A DNA stretch of 64,000 bases from Armatimonadota bacterium (GCA_028871815.1 JAGWMJ010000002.1:1-64000), one strand, 5' to 3'; shown: positions 2,914-19,914, numbered from the stretch's first letter. Notes: a model not told the origin generated them from the sequence alone. Program-made: numbers and translations.

Positions 2914-3249
2914 TCACAAGTTTTGCGCGGCTGGCGGTGCTGCCTTCCGGCTGCAGGCGCGACAGTGCCGCAAGCAGCTTCTTGAGAGCCCGGCTGTGGC
3001 GCCACGGCGCTGAGCACACAACAGTGCGCAGATGGCCTCACGCGTGCGATGTGGACCCGACCCGGGAACGTCGGAACGCTGAGCCAGGCATGCGAAGCCA
3101 TCCGCAGCAAAGCGTGAAGCCCATTTGTAGCCCGCGGACCGGCGTGTACCGAACGGTTCGCACAACTCCGCGAACCCATGCAGGCCGCAATGTGCTTTCA
3201 CAACGAATGGGCGCCCCTCATCCATTGAACCAATCTCTTTCATAGTCAT
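2914..3249 (-). pseudogene. Remnant of an IS481-type transposase (N-terminal part)
   Basis: The 111 codons contain a helix-turn-helix pattern (ELCEPFGTRRSAGYKWASRF), followed by FAADGFACLAQRSDVPGSG and a degenerate LCAQRR region. This matches the N-terminal DNA-binding domain of IS481 family transposases, where GISRKTGYKW and LADRSRAP are typical. A full transposase has about 300-400 residues with a DDE core; here the frame stops before any catalytic motif. No inverted repeats were found by eye. It is an old, inactive insertion sequence scar. Confidence 0.6.
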
Positions 3250-3573
3250 GGCGAAGGCTTCTCATCACGCCTGCCCAGGCGCCGGAAACTGGTACCGGTT
3301 CGTCGCAGCCGGTTAGGCATACAAGGCTTCCGGTATGTACCGCTCACCAAACATCAACTCACCGGACGCGCCGTGAACTCCACCAGCGCCGACGCCGAAC
3401 CGGGGCAAATTGCCCGGCGCCGGCCCGATCGCACCGGGCACACTATTGGCAGCAAGCCGACGGCGTTTGCGAGCCTTGATGCCGGCGACGCCTTCAGGCT
3501 TGCCATCGCGCTACAGCCGCTCTAACCCGCGGGCGGTTCCTTTGCCGAAGTGCGCCACAGCAGGAGATGGATG
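3250..3573. other. Intergenic stretch without a recognisable gene
   Basis: The stretch lies between the transposase remnant and the CAP-domain gene. It may include further decayed parts of the insertion element, but no motif or terminal repeat can be made out. A Shine-Dalgarno sequence for the next gene is at 3562-3567. Confidence 0.4.
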
Positions 3574-4389
3574 ATGGTACGGAAATCCTGGGTATCCAGC
3601 GCGGTAGCGGCCGTGGTATTGCTGCTGTCTTCAATTGCCGCACAGAGTCAGGCGCCTGTGTCCGCACCAGGCACGCTGATCAACACACAACTGCTCCAGC
3701 TTACCAACCAGATCCGACGCCAGCACGACCTGGCGCCATTTACCGAAAACGCCCAGCTGGATGAAGCTGCGGCCCAACAGGCCGCGGACATGGCCCGCCG
3801 CGACACCTGCAGCCATCTCAATGCGCAGGGGCAATACCTGGCGGCCCGGCTTTCGCTGGCCGGTTACACCAATTTCACCACGGCCGCAGAGGATGTTGCT
3901 GCCGGACAGCCATCACCGTCCTCCGTTCTGGATGCATGGCTTGCCAGTCCGCCGCACCGAATGGCGCTTTTGAACCCGGCCTATACCGAAATCGGACTTG
4001 GCTTCGCGTTGAACCACTCCGGGGTTTATCAGTACTACTGGGTTGAGGAGTTCGGTCACCGCCCTCACTCCGCGATCGCCTCCGCGATTCCATTTTCATC
4101 GCCGCCATCCGGAGCGCATTTCCAACTGGTCTCCACCGAACAGCAGCAGGCGCCGGCCCCACCGCCGACCAACGCCGTGAACATCAGCCTGGCTCCCGGC
4201 GCGTCCTCTGTTGGGGTTGAGTTGCGGATGAGCGATGACGGGCAGCACTGGTCAGAGTGGAAACCCGCGGACGCCAGCCTGCTCTGGAAGCCAACAGCCG
4301 CGTCCAGAACGCACACCATCTTTCTCCAGGTGAGGGCTGCCGGCGCTGTCCAGTCCGCCTCGGTGACCATTCGTCAGCCTGTGCCGTAA
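3574..4389 (+). CDS. Secreted CAP (SCP/PR1) domain protein
   Basis: A 271-residue exported protein. The start is ATG 3574, placed 6-7 bases after AGGAGA; the two earlier in-frame starts (3550, 3571) are worse spaced. A signal peptide (MVRKSW then a hydrophobic run ending SQA) is followed by a CAP domain at about residues 28-160: LTNQIRRQHDL, the AQQAADMA helix, HLNAQG, and the SPPHRMALLNPAYTEIGLGF signature, in which the two His residues match the usual CAP cavity. The remaining 100 residues contain a proline-rich linker and a beta-rich tail without a known match. Bacterial CAP proteins are extracellular and mostly of unknown role. Confidence 0.85.
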   Translation: MVRKSWVSSAVAAVVLLLSSIAAQSQAPVSAPGTLINTQLLQLTNQIRRQHDLAPFTENAQLDEAAAQQAADMARRDTCSHLNAQGQYLAARLSLAGYTNFTTAAEDVAAGQPSPSSVLDAWLASPPHRMALLNPAYTEIGLGFALNHSGVYQYYWVEEFGHRPHSAIASAIPFSSPPSGAHFQLVSTEQQQAPAPPPTNAVNISLAPGASSVGVELRMSDDGQHWSEWKPADASLLWKPTAASRTHTIFLQVRAAGAVQSASVTIRQPVP

Positions 4390-11018: not shown

Positions 11019-12235
11019 AATGAGACTTATGCCGTAGCCGGCTCCTGCGCCTGGCGCACAGCCGGACAACGCTGCTCCGCTTGCCGGCCACGCGTGCGCG
11101 AACCTATACGTCCTATATGTCGCATTGGTCCCATGTGGTGGGCGCGTACCCCAGCGCCAAACGCTTGCTGAAATGCGGCCAATGAGACTTATGCCGTAGC
11201 CGGCTCCTGCGCCTGGCGCACAGCCGAGTGCCGCCGCTCCGCTTGCCGGCCACGCCTGCGCGAACCTATATGTCCTAATATGTCGCATTGGTCCCATGTG
11301 GTGCGCGCCTACCCCAGCGCCAAACGCGATGGCAGCGCGGAACGCTTGCTGAAATGCAACCAATGAGACTTATGCCGTAGCCGGCTCCTAGGCCCGGCGC
11401 ACAGCCGAGTGCCGCTGCTCCGCTTGCCGGCCACGCCTGCGCGAACCTATATGTCCTATATGTCGCATTGGTCCCATGTGGTGCGCGCGTACCCCAGCGC
11501 CAAACGCGATGGCAGCGCCAGACGCTTGTTGAAATGCGACCCATGAGACTTATGCCGTAGCCGGAACCTAGGCCTGGCGCACAGCCGAGCGCCGCTGCTC
11601 CGCTTGCCGGCCACGTGTGCGCGAACCTATATGTCCTATATGTCGCATTGGTCCCATGTGGTGCGCACGTACCCCAGCGCCAAACGCGATGGCAGCGCGG
11701 GACGCTTACTTAAATGCGACCAATAGGACAGATGAGACATATGCGGTAGCCGGAATCTGCGCCTGGCGCACAGCCGAGTGCCGCTGCTCCGCTTGCCGGC
11801 CACGCGTGCGCGAACCTATATGTCCTATATGTCGCATTGGTCCCATGTGGTGCGCGCCTACCCCAGTCGAACGCGATGGCAGCGTCAAACGCTTGCTGAA
11901 AAGCGACCAATGAGACTTATGCCGTAGCCCACTCCTCGGCCCGGCGCACAGCCGAGCGCCGCTGCTCCGCTTGCTAGCCACTTGTGCGCGAACCTATATG
12001 TCCTATATGTCGCATTGGTCCCATGTGGTGCGCGCCTACCCCAGCGCCAAACGCGATGCCAGCGCGGAACGCCTGCTGAAATGCGACCAATGCGGCCAAT
12101 GAGACTTATGCCGTAGCCGGAACCTGGGCCCGGCGCACAGCCGGACAACGCTACTCCGCTTGCCGGTCACGGGTGCCTGAGGCTATATGTCCCAGATACC
12201 GCATAGCTGCCATCTGGCTGGTGCATGCCGTATCG
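11019..12235. repeat. Array of seven diverged tandem repeats of about 160-190 bp
   Basis: A unit beginning AATGAGACTTATGCCGTAGC recurs at about 11019, 11181, 11362, 11542, 11731, 11909 and 12098, the last copy being degenerate. Unit lengths are 162, 181, 180, 189, 178 and 189 bases. Each contains the block CCTATATGTCCTATATGTCG followed by CATTGGTCCCATGTGG, and the unit junction carries GACCAATG, so every copy has an inverted pair CATTGGTC/GACCAATG about 65 bases apart. The block itself is built from imperfect 9-base sub-repeats. Lengths are not multiples of three, so the open frames across the array are unlikely to be coding. It lies between the 3' end of an AKR gene and the 5' end of the GH127 gene. 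Confidence 0.9.
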
Positions 12236-15270: not shown

Positions 15271-15966
15271 ATGAAGCGTATCGAAAAGAAACATCCGCTT
15301 GCCATCCGCTGGTTTCACTGGATAAACTTTCCGGTGTTGATGGTGATGATCTGGAGCGGCCTGCTCATCTATTGGGCGAACGATGTGATGCACATCCGCG
15401 TCGCCGGCAAAACGCTCTTCCATTTCTTTCCAAACTGGTTCTATTCGCGGTTTAATCTCGATCAACGCCTGGCGGAAGGCATGGCATGGCACTTTACGTT
15501 CATGTGGCTCTTTGTCATCAATGGGCTGCTCTACGTGCTCACCACCGCGTTCCTGGGTGAGTGGCGCTTCATTCTGCCGAACCGGCACTCGTTTCGAGAG
15601 GCCATCCAGGTGACGCTTCACGATCTGCATCTCAGCCGGAAACAACCACCGCGGCGCAAATTCAACGGCGCGCAGCAGATCGCCTACACCAGCATCATCA
15701 TTATGGGAGCCGGTTCCACTCTCACCGGGCTCGCCATCTACAAACCCATCCAGTTGGCGTGGCTGACTGCGCTTTTTGGAGGATACACCGTGGCGCGGTT
15801 CTTCCACTTTTGGCTGACCATAGGTTTCTGCCTCTTCTTCGTCGTGCACATTGGACAGGTGGTTAAAACGGGGTGGGGCAACTTTCGTGCCATGGTCACC
15901 GGCTTCGAGCTGGTGGAGGCGCCGGAGCCGGAAGGCGACGCGGCTGTCACGCCGGCTTCCGGTTAG
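15271..15966 (+). CDS. Membrane cytochrome b (b561/FdnI/thiosulfate-reductase type)
   Basis: A 231-residue integral membrane protein. Four or more hydrophobic segments carry His residues placed to bind two b-type haems: IRWFHWINF (first helix), MAWHFTFMW (second), ARFFHFWLT (third) and FFVVHIGQ (fourth). Proteins of this type pass electrons from the quinone pool to an extracytoplasmic molybdoenzyme. The start ATG 15271 (MKRIEKKHPLAIRW) was chosen over GTG 15256 for the family-like N-terminus. A small membrane protein and a sulfite-oxidase-type molybdoenzyme follow directly, so it is probably their electron donor or acceptor, as MsrQ is for MsrP, but this is not an MsrQ homologue by sequence pattern. 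Confidence 0.85.
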   Translation: MKRIEKKHPLAIRWFHWINFPVLMVMIWSGLLIYWANDVMHIRVAGKTLFHFFPNWFYSRFNLDQRLAEGMAWHFTFMWLFVINGLLYVLTTAFLGEWRFILPNRHSFREAIQVTLHDLHLSRKQPPRRKFNGAQQIAYTSIIIMGAGSTLTGLAIYKPIQLAWLTALFGGYTVARFFHFWLTIGFCLFFVVHIGQVVKTGWGNFRAMVTGFELVEAPEPEGDAAVTPASG

Positions 15967-15978
15967 TCGAGGAGGCGT

Positions 15979-16449
15979 ATGGTTATTGGGCTGACCGGCA
16001 TGTACGACCTCATCTCAGGCTCCGGCCGGCCCAACGGCAGGCCGCCCAGCAACCTGCACGGCGATGCGGAACAGCCGTCAGTCCGTACGCGCCGGCATGC
16101 CGCGTTGGCAGGAGGCCTCGTCTGCCGCACGGGCGAACCGAGCTTCAGGGTGAGTTACCGACGATTGCTCGTGCCTATGGCAGGCCTGATTACGGGTATC
16201 CTTGCATGGGTGCAAGTGCTCTATCCGATGCCACTTTATGTGGTTGGCATCGGGTTGGCGGCGGGCGCACTTCTCATCCCGGGCTTTGCCCTGATAACGC
16301 AGAAGCAACAAAACACGTATCCGCATAAGCGGGCTTGGTTGGATTATGAAGTTAGCGTGATAACGTATCGCGCGCTTGTTGCGATAGGTAAGGTGCTGGT
16401 CATGGCGGACGCTGCCGCTGGCCAGCATGGAGGTGGCGATGCCGGGTGA
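15979..16449 (+). CDS. Small membrane protein between cytochrome b and molybdoenzyme genes
   Basis: A 156-residue protein with a strong AGGAGG Shine-Dalgarno (15970-15975) just before the ATG. The first 60 residues are polar and glycine/arginine-rich. Two adjacent membrane helices follow (about residues 65-83 and 88-106), then an amphipathic tail. It starts 12 bases after the cytochrome gene and its end overlaps the start of the molybdoenzyme gene by 11 bases, so the three are one transcription unit. It is not recognised; it may be an accessory or anchor subunit of the redox complex. Confidence 0.65.
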   Translation: MVIGLTGMYDLISGSGRPNGRPPSNLHGDAEQPSVRTRRHAALAGGLVCRTGEPSFRVSYRRLLVPMAGLITGILAWVQVLYPMPLYVVGIGLAAGALLIPGFALITQKQQNTYPHKRAWLDYEVSVITYRALVAIGKVLVMADAAAGQHGGGDAG

Positions 16450-17395
16450 CGAGGCGCCGACGAAGGCGCCCTCGGGTGATGAAGCCGTCCGCGCGATGCG
16501 GAGGCTATCTCGCCGGAGCTTTGCCTGGGCTGCTCTTGTCGGGGCAACCGCCTACGGCGGGTGGCGATGGCTCGACAGCCAGTATCAGGAAGATGGAATC
16601 ATCTGGCCGCTCCGCCGCGTACTCGAAGTTAACGAGGGCTTCGCGCGCGATTATTACAGCCCGAAGCGGCTTGCACCTCAGTTCCCCGCAGCCGCGGCGC
16701 GTGAGCCATTGGCGAATGGCGACATCGGCATCATGGATGACCTGGACCCCGCAACCTGGAGGTTGCGCGTGATGGGCCTCGCCGATATGTCGGGCGCCGA
16801 TACCGCCCCCGCGAGTGCGGCGCCCGTAGCCGACAAAAAATCCTCAGGATCCCGCAAGAAACCGCCGCCTACGGGAGAATCCACCTCCGGCGCGGGCGGT
16901 GGCGCCGTGCAGACCGATATGGCGATGACGGGGTCGCCGGCTCTGACCCTGGGGCTGCACGCCATCAAGCAACTGCCGAGAATTGAGATCGTTACGCAGC
17001 TCAAGTGCATCGAGGGATGGGCAACTGTAGTTCGGTGGGCAGGCGCGCGGTTTGCCGACTTTGTCGCGCAGTACCCACCCGAAACGCAGTCCGGCAACGA
17101 TCCCGATGTGCGCCACCACCCCGAAGATTTGGCCCAGTACGTCAGCCTGGTAACGCCCGACGGCGCCTACTATGTAGGTTTGGATATGGCCAGTGCGCTG
17201 CACCCGCAAACGCTGCTGTGTTACGAAATGAACGGCGCGCCGTTATCTCAGGATCATGGTGCGCCGCTACGACTGGTCATTCCGGTGAAGTACGGCATCA
17301 AGCATCTGAAGCGCATCGGCCTGATACGTTATACAAACAAGCGCCCGGCGGACTACTGGGCGGAGCAGGGATATGATTGGTATGCCGGGCACTGA
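16439..17395 (+). CDS. Tat-exported molybdopterin oxidoreductase, sulfite oxidase/MsrP (YedY) superfamily
   Basis: A 318-residue protein. The N-terminus has a Tat motif (SRRSFAW) before a hydrophobic stretch. The catalytic domain shows LKCIEGWATVVRWAG around Cys190, the expected molybdenum ligand, and ends with VIPVKYGIKHLKRIGLI, a signature of the SUOX/YedY fold. A low-complexity insertion rich in Ala, Ser, Lys, Pro and Gly (about residues 118-166) interrupts the domain between MGLAD and the TLGLHAIKQLP segment. ATG 16439 has GGAGG five bases upstream; ATG 16427 is an alternative. With the cytochrome b it would form an extracytoplasmic redox system, possibly methionine sulfoxide reduction, given the Met-rich protein gene 134 bases downstream. 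Confidence 0.85.
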   Translation: MPGDEAPTKAPSGDEAVRAMRRLSRRSFAWAALVGATAYGGWRWLDSQYQEDGIIWPLRRVLEVNEGFARDYYSPKRLAPQFPAAAAREPLANGDIGIMDDLDPATWRLRVMGLADMSGADTAPASAAPVADKKSSGSRKKPPPTGESTSGAGGGAVQTDMAMTGSPALTLGLHAIKQLPRIEIVTQLKCIEGWATVVRWAGARFADFVAQYPPETQSGNDPDVRHHPEDLAQYVSLVTPDGAYYVGLDMASALHPQTLLCYEMNGAPLSQDHGAPLRLVIPVKYGIKHLKRIGLIRYTNKRPADYWAEQGYDWYAGH

Positions 17396-17529
17396 CCGGA
17401 TCAACAAGCTTTATCGAATCTGCCGGGCGATACGCGGCCTCGGGCCCGGCCGATGCGCAGCGCGCCGCTTCCGCGGCGTGGCGCCAGCTGGCCGCACATC
17501 CAGAAACGGTCACAAGGAGACCTGAATCA

Positions 17530-17871
17530 ATGGGACGACGACTGCTTGCTGCCCTCGGGGCAACCGCCATGCTGGTGTCACTTACCGCTATGCCGCTGCT
17601 GGCACAGCACAAGATGACCAAGCACGGCAAGATGGCTATGCACGGCAAAATGATGCATGGCAAGAAAGCCATGCACGGCAAGAAAGCTATGCACGGCAAG
17701 AAAGCCATGCACGGCAAGAAAGCCATGCACGGTATGAAGATGCACAGCAAAACGATGCACGGCAAGATGATGCACGGCAAGATGATGCATGGCAAGACGA
17801 TGCATGGCAAGATGATGCATGGCAAGATGATGCACATGAAGATGGGCGCACACAAAAAGCCCACCAAGTAG
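17530..17871 (+). CDS. Secreted Met/His/Lys-rich repeat protein
   Basis: A 113-residue protein. A Shine-Dalgarno AAGGAG (17514-17519) sets the ATG at 17530. A signal peptide of about 25 residues (MGRRLLAALGATAML... ending PLLA) is followed by a mature chain made almost only of MHGKK, MHGKM and related units. By count the mature part has 23 Met and 16 His in 88 residues, plus many Lys. Such composition suits metal binding or a sacrificial methionine sink for oxidants. It lies just downstream of a sulfite-oxidase/MsrP-type molybdoenzyme, recalling the Met-rich MrpX partner of YedYZ in Azospira hypochlorite defence. It has two tandem paralogues with the same signal peptide. Function is inferred. 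Confidence 0.85.
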   Translation: MGRRLLAALGATAMLVSLTAMPLLAQHKMTKHGKMAMHGKMMHGKKAMHGKKAMHGKKAMHGKKAMHGMKMHSKTMHGKMMHGKMMHGKTMHGKMMHGKMMHMKMGAHKKPTK

Positions 17872-18048: not shown

Positions 18049-18429
18049 ATGGGAAGACGATTGCTGGCAGTCATCGGGGCCGCTGCTTTGCTCATGGGCC
18101 TCACCGCCATGCCGCTTCTGGCACAGGACAACTTGGCGCACCGCACGAAGACGGTGAGCCACCGTACCGTGGTGGCGCATCGCACGGTTACGCACGGAAC
18201 CCGAGCCACACGCCGCGCGAAGAGGCACGTCGCCCGGGTGGCCCGCCGCACGAGGCGGCACGTCCGGCGAGTGGCTCGGCGTACCAGAAGGCATATACGC
18301 CGGGTTGCGCGCCGCACGAGACGGCATGTAAGGCGAGTGGCTCGGCGGATGAGGCGGCATGCCAGACGCGCCGAGCGCCACACCGCGAGGCACAACGCAC
18401 GAGTCGCGAAACACGAGCCCGCCAAATAG
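18049..18429 (+). CDS. Secreted Arg/His-rich repeat protein
   Basis: A 126-residue protein whose first 26 residues (MGRRLLAVIGAAALLMG... PLLAQ) are nearly the same as those of the preceding Met-rich protein. The Shine-Dalgarno is AGAGGAG at 18034-18040. The mature part is extremely basic: after a short His/Thr/Val-rich section come repeats of the form RRTRRHVRRVA. There is no Met-rich section. It could bind polyanions (LPS, teichoic or nucleic acids) or metals. It is 177 bases after the first paralogue, so the genes may have separate leaders. No known family is recognised. Confidence 0.8.
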   Translation: MGRRLLAVIGAAALLMGLTAMPLLAQDNLAHRTKTVSHRTVVAHRTVTHGTRATRRAKRHVARVARRTRRHVRRVARRTRRHIRRVARRTRRHVRRVARRMRRHARRAERHTARHNARVAKHEPAK

Positions 18430-18564: not shown

Positions 18565-18990
18565 TTGAGAAACAGGCTGCTCGTCGCCATTGGGGCTATC
18601 ACCGTGTTGATGAGCATAATGGCAATACCGGTGTCGGCGCAAACCGCAACCTCGGCGCATCACAAGACGTTGGCGCAACGCACGGCAAGCAATCTCGAGC
18701 GCGGAATACGCAGCGCAAAGCGCCACATAAAGCGTGGTGCGGCCAGCGCGAAGAGGAACGTGAACAAGGGCGCCCGCAGCGCCAGGCGACATACGGGGCG
18801 CGGCATACGCAGCGCAAAGCGCCATATAAAGCGCGGTGCGGCCAGCGCGAAGAGGAACGTAAACAAGGGCGGCCGCAGCGCTAAGCGACATACGAGGCGC
18901 GGAATACGCAGCGCAAAGCGCCATATAAAGCGAGGTATTGCCAGCGCCGGGAGGCATATTGCGCCTGCCCACACCACTTCCGACAAGTAG
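18565..18990 (+). CDS. Secreted Lys/Arg-rich repeat protein
   Basis: Third member of the tandem family, 141 residues from a TTG start at 18565. The TTG was chosen because GGGAGA lies 6-7 bases upstream and because the N-terminus then aligns with the paralogues (RNRLLVAIGAITVLMS... VSAQ). The mature part is built from two alternating units, RGIRSAKRHIKRG and AASAKRNVNKG, repeated about three times. It is strongly basic, like the C-terminal tails of histone H1-like proteins, but carries a signal peptide and so is exported. Function unknown. Confidence 0.78.
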   Translation: MRNRLLVAIGAITVLMSIMAIPVSAQTATSAHHKTLAQRTASNLERGIRSAKRHIKRGAASAKRNVNKGARSARRHTGRGIRSAKRHIKRGAASAKRNVNKGGRSAKRHTRRGIRSAKRHIKRGIASAGRHIAPAHTTSDK

Positions 18991-19116: not shown

Positions 19117-19914
19117 TCATCGCTGTTTCCACACGATAAACGCCGTCTCGGTACGGAAGCCCAAGCGCTCAGTTCTCCATGGCTCATCCGCGAGCCAAAC
19201 ACGCATCAGCTGGCTGTAGTTCTGGTCCATGCCACGCTGAGCCCCTCCAAGACTTGTCGTTGGAAACGAGACGACGAGGGCCGGCGCCGGCACGTTCCGC
19301 ATCAGCCGAATCGCTGATCCGGGCTCCAGGCGCTCCAGCGCGGGAAGCAGCTTAAGCATCAGCGCCACATCGGCCGGTTCACAGCGCAATGCGCCAAGCA
19401 GATCGGCGGGTTCGGCCAGGCCATGGACGCCGGCGGCGTCGAACCCGGCCTGAATCACGGACGTTATGTCGCTGCGTGCGTCCAGCGCGTGGTACCGAAC
19501 ATCGGATGGCAGCCCCATCCATGGCAGGGCGGCTGGATTCACGCCGCAGCCCAGGTCCAGAACGCTGTGCACCGGGCCGACTGCACTGAAGATCGAGGCG
19601 TAGAACTGCGCCATCTCCGGCAGCCGCTCGCGCGTAGAGGCATGGCGCTGCAGCAGATCGCGGCAGACCGTGCTGCGCTCGCCGGCGTCCTTGCAAGCCG
19701 CGTAGCGCTTCCGCCACGCGGTAACATTCAACGGCGCGGGGCATGGCGCCGAAACCGCGAGGTGAAGCGCGCGGCGAACCTCGGCTTCGGCCCGGTCCGA
19801 ATCTGGATATCGCGCCACGGCGGCGTCGGCAAGATGCTGAACAACGTGCGCAGCTGTGGTGCGATACTTCCGCGATGCAAGCACAGCCTGCACGATCGGC
19901 TCAGCCTGGGTCAC
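19117..19914 (-). CDS. 16S rRNA methyltransferase of the ArmA/Rmt/FmrO (G1405 N7) family
   Basis: A 265-residue protein. Family members methylate N7 of G1405 in helix 44 of 16S rRNA and give resistance to aminoglycosides. Matching motifs are SRKYRT (14-19), HASTRERLPEM with FYASIF (91-108), SAM-binding SVLDLGCGVNP (117-127) with ALPWMGL, YHALDARSD (141-149), LMLKLLPALE (185-194), VVSFPTTSLGG (214-224) and GMDQNY (228-233). All occur in the same order in ArmA and RmtB. Its ATG overlaps the stop of a TGT-like gene (ATGA), which in turn overlaps rsmI. It is not next to mobile elements or antibiotic genes, so it looks like a resident rRNA modifier. The target base is inferred from the family. Confidence 0.85.
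   Translation of the reverse strand: MTQAEPIVQAVLASRKYRTTAAHVVQHLADAAVARYPDSDRAEAEVRRALHLAVSAPCPAPLNVTAWRKRYAACKDAGERSTVCRDLLQRHASTRERLPEMAQFYASIFSAVGPVHSVLDLGCGVNPAALPWMGLPSDVRYHALDARSDITSVIQAGFDAAGVHGLAEPADLLGALRCEPADVALMLKLLPALERLEPGSAIRLMRNVPAPALVVSFPTTSLGGAQRGMDQNYSQLMRVWLADEPWRTERLGFRTETAFIVWKQR

Follow-up and report, generated by a model that had tools for sequence, protein, structure and literature searches.

Repair of methionine in the cell envelope by a molybdoenzyme of the sulfite-oxidase fold is usually equated with MsrPQ (YedYZ). The yedYZ-mrpX genes of Azospira suillum (Melnyk 2015, as cited in PMC8315932 and PMC4623255) act as a renewable hypochlorite sink, where MsrP and MsrQ proper are combined with an exported Met-rich peptide. 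In Brucella, the bcrXQP genes encode an MXKDX-type Met-rich protein together with methionine-sulfoxide reductase genes, and they are accompanied by the sigma/anti-sigma pair BcrS/AbcS and induced by HOCl (PMC8315932). A related system was described in uropathogenic E. coli (UPEC) CFT073, where loss of c3566 or c3567, the cytochrome or the enzyme gene, makes the cells sensitive to tert-butyl hydroperoxide, with poorer growth and survival. The c3566-c3568 genes are under OrhK/OrhR and their authors proposed a methionine-sulfoxide reductase, likening its cytochrome to MsrQ at 23% identity (PMC8550376).

The window examined here, a 64,000-nucleotide stretch from an Armatimonadota bacterium (GCA_028871815.1 JAGWMJ010000002.1:1-64000), carries a gene set of this already known kind which stands out by its enzyme clade, a cytochrome family other than that of MsrQ, the phyla in which it occurs and its linkage to MsrB. 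As in c3566-c3567-c3568, a PF01292 cytochrome, a PF00174 enzyme and an exported Met-rich peptide are found in the same order within one gene run. The comparison was made on an E. coli plasmid and on UPEC strain 536, whose chromosome has these three parts (with a PF01292 cytochrome) at a locus that we take, by gene order, to be the counterpart of c3566-c3568. The enzymes of the two sets fall into separate clades (100/99 for UPEC and 100/96 for the window). The UPEC counterpart has two-component regulation, whereas no two-component genes were found adjoining the window unit. UPEC-type and proteobacterial cytochromes belong to PF01292, whereas MsrQ belongs to PF01794. The window shares with yedYZ-mrpX the exported Met-rich peptide, the molybdoenzyme and a membrane b-heme protein, but it differs in having an enzyme that does not fall within the MsrP clade and a cytochrome of PF01292 instead of PF01794. 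The Brucella genes resemble the window in having a Met-rich protein beside reductase genes, but those of Brucella are MsrPQ homologues; no sigma gene was found adjoining the window unit.

Comparable sets were observed elsewhere. Caballeronia has a cytochrome b/b6, a molybdopterin oxidoreductase and an MXKDX repeat protein with an ECF sigma factor and NrsF, and an equivalent three-part set with two-component genes is present in Rahnella and on an E. coli plasmid. A search of 5,426 complete E. coli genomes gave matches to the proteobacterial-type pair in 352, on both plasmids and chromosomes. At the two E. coli loci of Table 1 (L136 and L137), two-component or response-regulator genes and a Met-rich 'hypothetical protein' lie alongside.

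The gene set in the window

Table 1. Features of the window, MsrB genes at related loci and proteobacterial-type pairs, with their coordinates
Feature	Location	Strand	Evidence or remark
b561-type diheme cytochrome b (PF01292)	window 15271..15966	+	Pfam 70.2 bits vs cut-off 30
Small membrane protein, divergent DUF1003-like, optional part	window 15979..16449	+	start codon uncertain
Tat-exported molybdoenzyme, sulfite-oxidase fold, MsrP-like, outside MsrP clade	window 16427..17395	+	PF00174 84.5 bits; Tat-type motif RRLSRRSF
Secreted Met/Lys/His repeat protein (MHGK repeats)	window 17530..17871	+	leader, composition, counterparts at equivalent position in relatives
Tandem secreted repeat protein, Arg/His-rich (RRVARRTRRH)	window 18049..18429	+	leader common with Met-rich gene
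Third tandem secreted repeat protein, Lys/Arg-rich (RSAKRHIKRG)	window 18565..18990	+	found in source genome only
MsrB	L043 8570-9121		
MsrB	L056 7861-8463		
MsrB fused to thioredoxin-like domain	L058 4019-5008		
MsrB	L074 545-1186		
MsrB	L088 1296-1904		
MsrB	L101 6956-7315		no clear leader
MsrB	L112 3984-4769		
Thioredoxin-MsrB fusion	L107 4765-5862		locus with partial enzyme, not counted
Proteobacterial-type pair	L136 4001-5650		E. coli plasmid
Proteobacterial-type pair	L137 306-1945		UPEC 536 chromosome

The cytochrome is proposed to be the quinol-oxidising membrane partner of the molybdoenzyme. Its likely heme ligands are H16, H74, H179 and H193, which at least 98% of the 61 clade members and 8/8 proteobacterial ones retain. 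The sequence-only reading had placed a b561-type cytochrome where MsrQ would be, and this holds since the partner belongs to PF01292 and no PF01794 (MsrQ-type) protein is present in the source genome. Only 7 of the 61 Armatimonadota genomes searched have any PF01794 match. The small membrane protein shows 36% identity over 97 residues to a DUF1003 protein at the equivalent position in L048, and its relatives score as DUF1003. We rejected it as a core part of the unit because counterparts were found at just two other loci (L046 and L048).

The molybdoenzyme is the sole PF00174 protein of the source genome, which also encodes TatC and MoeA. Among 34 relatives, residues R29, C194, E196, G197 and W198 are invariant and R30 is nearly so. 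C194 is the Mo-ligand cysteine in a CxExW setting and aligns with the CVE[AG]W motif of MsrP, so that the enzyme resembles MsrP both in Tat export and in the setting of its Mo ligand. Neither MsrB nor a stress regulator was found adjoining the unit in the window, and the sole MsrB of the source genome is on another contig. A consensus scan for promoters and terminators gave matches that were mostly intragenic or at chance level.

The Met/Lys/His repeat protein is proposed to be a renewable oxidant sink. Its ATG lies 134 bases past the enzyme stop and its signal peptide ends with LLAQ. When cut at residue 25, the mature chain has 88 residues, of which 23 are Met, 23 Lys, 16 His and 13 Gly. Between the repeats, the codons for His, Lys, Gly and Ala show synonymous differences, which fits a repeat that may be kept at the protein level. 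Met reaches 32% in the richest 50-residue stretch, and no such stretch with at least 18% Met was observed in a random 400 kb of the source genome and two Met-positive relatives, which excludes chance as the origin of the Met-rich stretch. The protein does not match the MXKDX repeat family (TIGR02953, cut-off 41 bits), and its L041 counterpart scores 21.5 bits. Its export signal, Met content and position are those of an MrpX-type sink, a role that would also require the neighbouring enzyme to act as the predicted Msr.

Two more secreted repeat proteins follow in tandem. The leaders of the Arg/His-rich and Met-rich genes agree at 59 of 78 nucleotides, and the third gene has no relatives in 60 related genomes. 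Both mature chains are nearly Met-free, and all three tandem proteins are strongly basic with net charges of +23, +36 and +33 respectively. The sequence gives no evidence for or against an Asr-like acid-stress role of the basic paralogues.

The cytochrome, small membrane protein, Tat enzyme and Met-rich gene described by the sequence-only reading were all confirmed in place, and so was the content of 23 Met and 16 His in the mature chain. The two tandem genes downstream had been missed. The arrangement is not confined to the source genome, as genetic tests of these three components exist for uropathogenic E. coli (PMC8550376).

Elsewhere in the window, a 1-kb tandem array is found at 11152-12192, with a 180-base unit in 5.7 copies at 86% match. 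The product of 19117-19914 belongs to the FmrO family (PF07091, 141 bits), whose rRNA methyltransferases are known from aminoglycoside producers, and a queuine tRNA-ribosyltransferase-like gene adjoins it.

Placement of the molybdoenzyme

A tree of 76 enzyme sequences, where the window clade comprises 48 rows, contains three separate clades: the window clade (100/96), MsrP (100/100) and the proteobacterial group (100/99). Sulfite oxidases and short YuiH-like proteins are set apart from these by a 98/88 split. MsrP, which sits on a long branch, is the sister of the window clade (97/91), but a topology that unites the window clade with the proteobacterial group was not rejected (p 0.29).

Profile searches were consistent with this placement. 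The window enzyme scores 82.4 bits with the MsrP model (NCBIfam NF003767), where the equivalog cut-off is 207 and a true MsrP control gives 485.5, and it does not have the C-terminal extension of MsrP. It is also far under the cut-offs for SorA, SorT and SoxC. The Mo-co_dimer domain (PF03404) is found in the SUOX control L149 and is missing from the window enzyme, which has PF00174 only, although the annotated sulfite oxidase L131 is likewise without a match. Assignment of the enzyme to MsrP itself was rejected on the score of 82.4 bits against 207 and on its position outside the MsrP clade. One outcome that would have spoken against the earlier reading, a grouping with true sulfite dehydrogenases, was not observed. 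Judged by tree and profile scores, the enzyme thus belongs to a separate, well-supported clade and is neither an MsrP nor a sulfite dehydrogenase.

E. coli YedY/MsrP is the nearest solved relative by both profile and fold. The profile search gave 1xdq with an E-value of 1.5e-23, the next structure being at 2e-12. In the fold search with the enzyme model (mean pLDDT 82.6), the TM-score to E. coli YedY/MsrP was about 0.44 on the query, a low value that is probably due in part to the long leader and to an insert of low confidence near 130-170. This match ranks the relatives of the modelled enzyme and is no proof of activity.

Recurrence of the unit and its neighbours

A close relative of the enzyme is present in 18 of 60 related genomes. 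From a wider genome collection we assembled 58 non-redundant clade loci with both flanks; L107, whose enzyme is partial, was not counted. These loci span Armatimonadota, Acidobacteriota, Bacteroidota (Hymenobacter), Planctomycetota, Verrucomicrobiota and others. Nearly every locus has the cytochrome gene next to the enzyme gene, and the pair is a conserved unit.

Absence of Met-rich neighbours from related genomes would also have spoken against the sequence-only reading, but such neighbours do recur. A gene for a Met-rich secreted protein or lipoprotein adjoins the unit on the same strand in 11/58 loci, all from Armatimonadota and Planctomycetota. It lies downstream in the Armatimonadota (the window, L041, L042, L043, L044, L048, L058 and L101) and upstream, as a lipoprotein, in the Planctomycetota loci L093, L094 and L112. 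L101 has a second Met-rich gene upstream of the unit. The frame in L044 is without a proper start, because the gene has decayed or was misassembled. The counterparts vary in their repeat letters (DKM, GKM, HGK, SKG) while their Met content stays high. On the clade tree, the Met-rich neighbour requires at least 6 changes of state. The chance of finding at least 11 such neighbours is about 6e-9 when the 95% upper bound of the density in the random 400 kb is used, and the link between the Met-rich gene and the cytochrome-enzyme unit is real. The neighbour is missing at 47/58 clade loci, including all those of Hymenobacter and Acidobacteriota, and therefore the enzyme is independent of the Met-rich gene. 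Two candidate neighbours were rejected: the Met-rich stretch at L098 belongs to a thioredoxin-like protein, and L123 has 14% Met in an unlikely ORF.

As a genome-wide probe, TIGR02953 gave 3 matches in 61 genomes, 2 of them the gene at the unit, and it misses most Armatimonadota Met-rich peptides including that of the window. A profile of the Met-rich proteins (A1) found the gene at the unit once in each of five genomes, a result that is circular because all five were in the profile. Its five other matches are on different contigs from the enzyme of the unit.

MsrB (SelR) was observed within 1 kb of the unit in 7/58 loci (L043, L056, L058, L074, L088, L101 and L112), which come from several phyla. 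Most of the linked MsrB proteins have a signal peptide, membrane-type or lipoprotein leader as judged by eye. Between 0.03 and 0.13 such loci would be expected, given 58 MsrB matches in 49 related genomes, or roughly one per genome. A Met-rich gene is also present at 4 of the 7 MsrB loci (Fisher p 0.02, which is indicative only because the loci are related). As an example, L043 (genome G048) has the order sigma factor, zinc-finger anti-sigma, MsrB, cytochrome, enzyme and Met-rich protein. ECF sigma genes were found near several relatives of the window unit. The presence of MsrB next to the unit points to methionine sulfoxide as the likely substrate.

A candidate oxidant sink and its alternatives

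We infer from this gene set that the unit is probably a quinol-driven methionine-sulfoxide reductase acting outside the cytoplasm and that the Met-rich protein probably serves it as a renewable oxidant sink. The b561-type cytochrome would draw electrons from the quinone pool, and its two b hemes would relay them to the Tat-exported molybdenum enzyme for the reduction of oxidised methionines (methionine sulfoxide). The secreted Met-rich protein would be an abundant, disordered substrate of this enzyme. It might take hits from oxidants such as peroxides and hypochlorous acid and then be regenerated, which would make it a rechargeable sink, and the enzyme may also repair other envelope proteins. 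Against this mechanism, Lys is as frequent as Met in the Met-rich protein, which is also His-rich, its two tandem paralogues are nearly without Met, and the UPEC enzyme is in a different clade from the window enzyme.

Three other explanations were considered and all are weaker than a methionine-sulfoxide reductase with a sink. The enzyme could be an envelope methionine-sulfoxide or related reductase with no sink beside it, where the tandem genes encode secreted polycations of a general kind, such as proteins for acid stress or surface binding, one of which became Met-rich by chance. Three tandem genes with related leaders, all basic and two of them almost Met-free, agree with such an origin, as does the missing Met-rich gene at most clade loci. 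We nevertheless regard it as unlikely, since Met-rich genes with differing repeat letters recur in place in genomes without basic paralogues. A role of the Met/His protein as a periplasmic copper buffer, similar to Met-rich copper chaperones and repaired by the enzyme after copper or oxidant damage, seems quite unlikely. Its 16 His and 23 Met would be suitable for both Cu(I) and Cu(II), CopC/CopD genes stand beside the set in one Paraburkholderia relative, and one report links MsrPQ to the copper chaperone CusF in E. coli (PMC9302797). However, His is 0% in the mature chains of L043, L048, L101 and L112 where Met is still high, and no copper gene was found among the annotated neighbours in the window or the Met-positive loci.

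The PF00174 fold is common to sulfite oxidases, and electron flow through b561-type cytochromes is possible either way in principle. The pair might thus be a sulfite dehydrogenase, or oxidise another small substrate, and feed the quinone pool via the cytochrome, the Met-rich gene being incidental. This is very improbable given the 98/88 split from the sulfite oxidases and the missing dimerisation domain, together with scores far below the SorA, SorT and SoxC cut-offs and the recurrence of MsrB neighbours.

For the preferred methionine-sulfoxide reductase with a sink, the occurrence of the gene set in distant relatives suggests a widespread, respiration-recharged system that may soak up oxidants outside the cell. 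In its fullest form, which we hold to be evenly balanced between right and wrong, this would be a second, MsrQ-free kind of quinol-driven reductase. It would have its own enzyme clade and a b561-type cytochrome, occur in five phyla (Armatimonadota, Acidobacteriota, Bacteroidota, Planctomycetota and Verrucomicrobiota) beside exported MsrB, and have gained a disposable Met-rich sink several times independently, in the window among three fast-evolving repeat genes that share a leader. Envelope methionine repair would then extend past MsrPQ to the separate clade and the other cytochrome found here. A candidate activity can be named for a widespread pair which is annotated just as 'molybdopterin-dependent oxidoreductase' and 'cytochrome b/b6'. 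Furthermore, repeated convergent gain of Met-rich sinks would make rechargeable oxidant sinks a general strategy, beyond perchlorate reducers.

We also noticed a similar secreted protein that is not Met-rich (RGxVxSxSGxTLxV) beside other b561-linked enzymes, at L132 607-1230 and L128 ~3140-3800. It lies upstream of the pair at one locus and downstream at the other.
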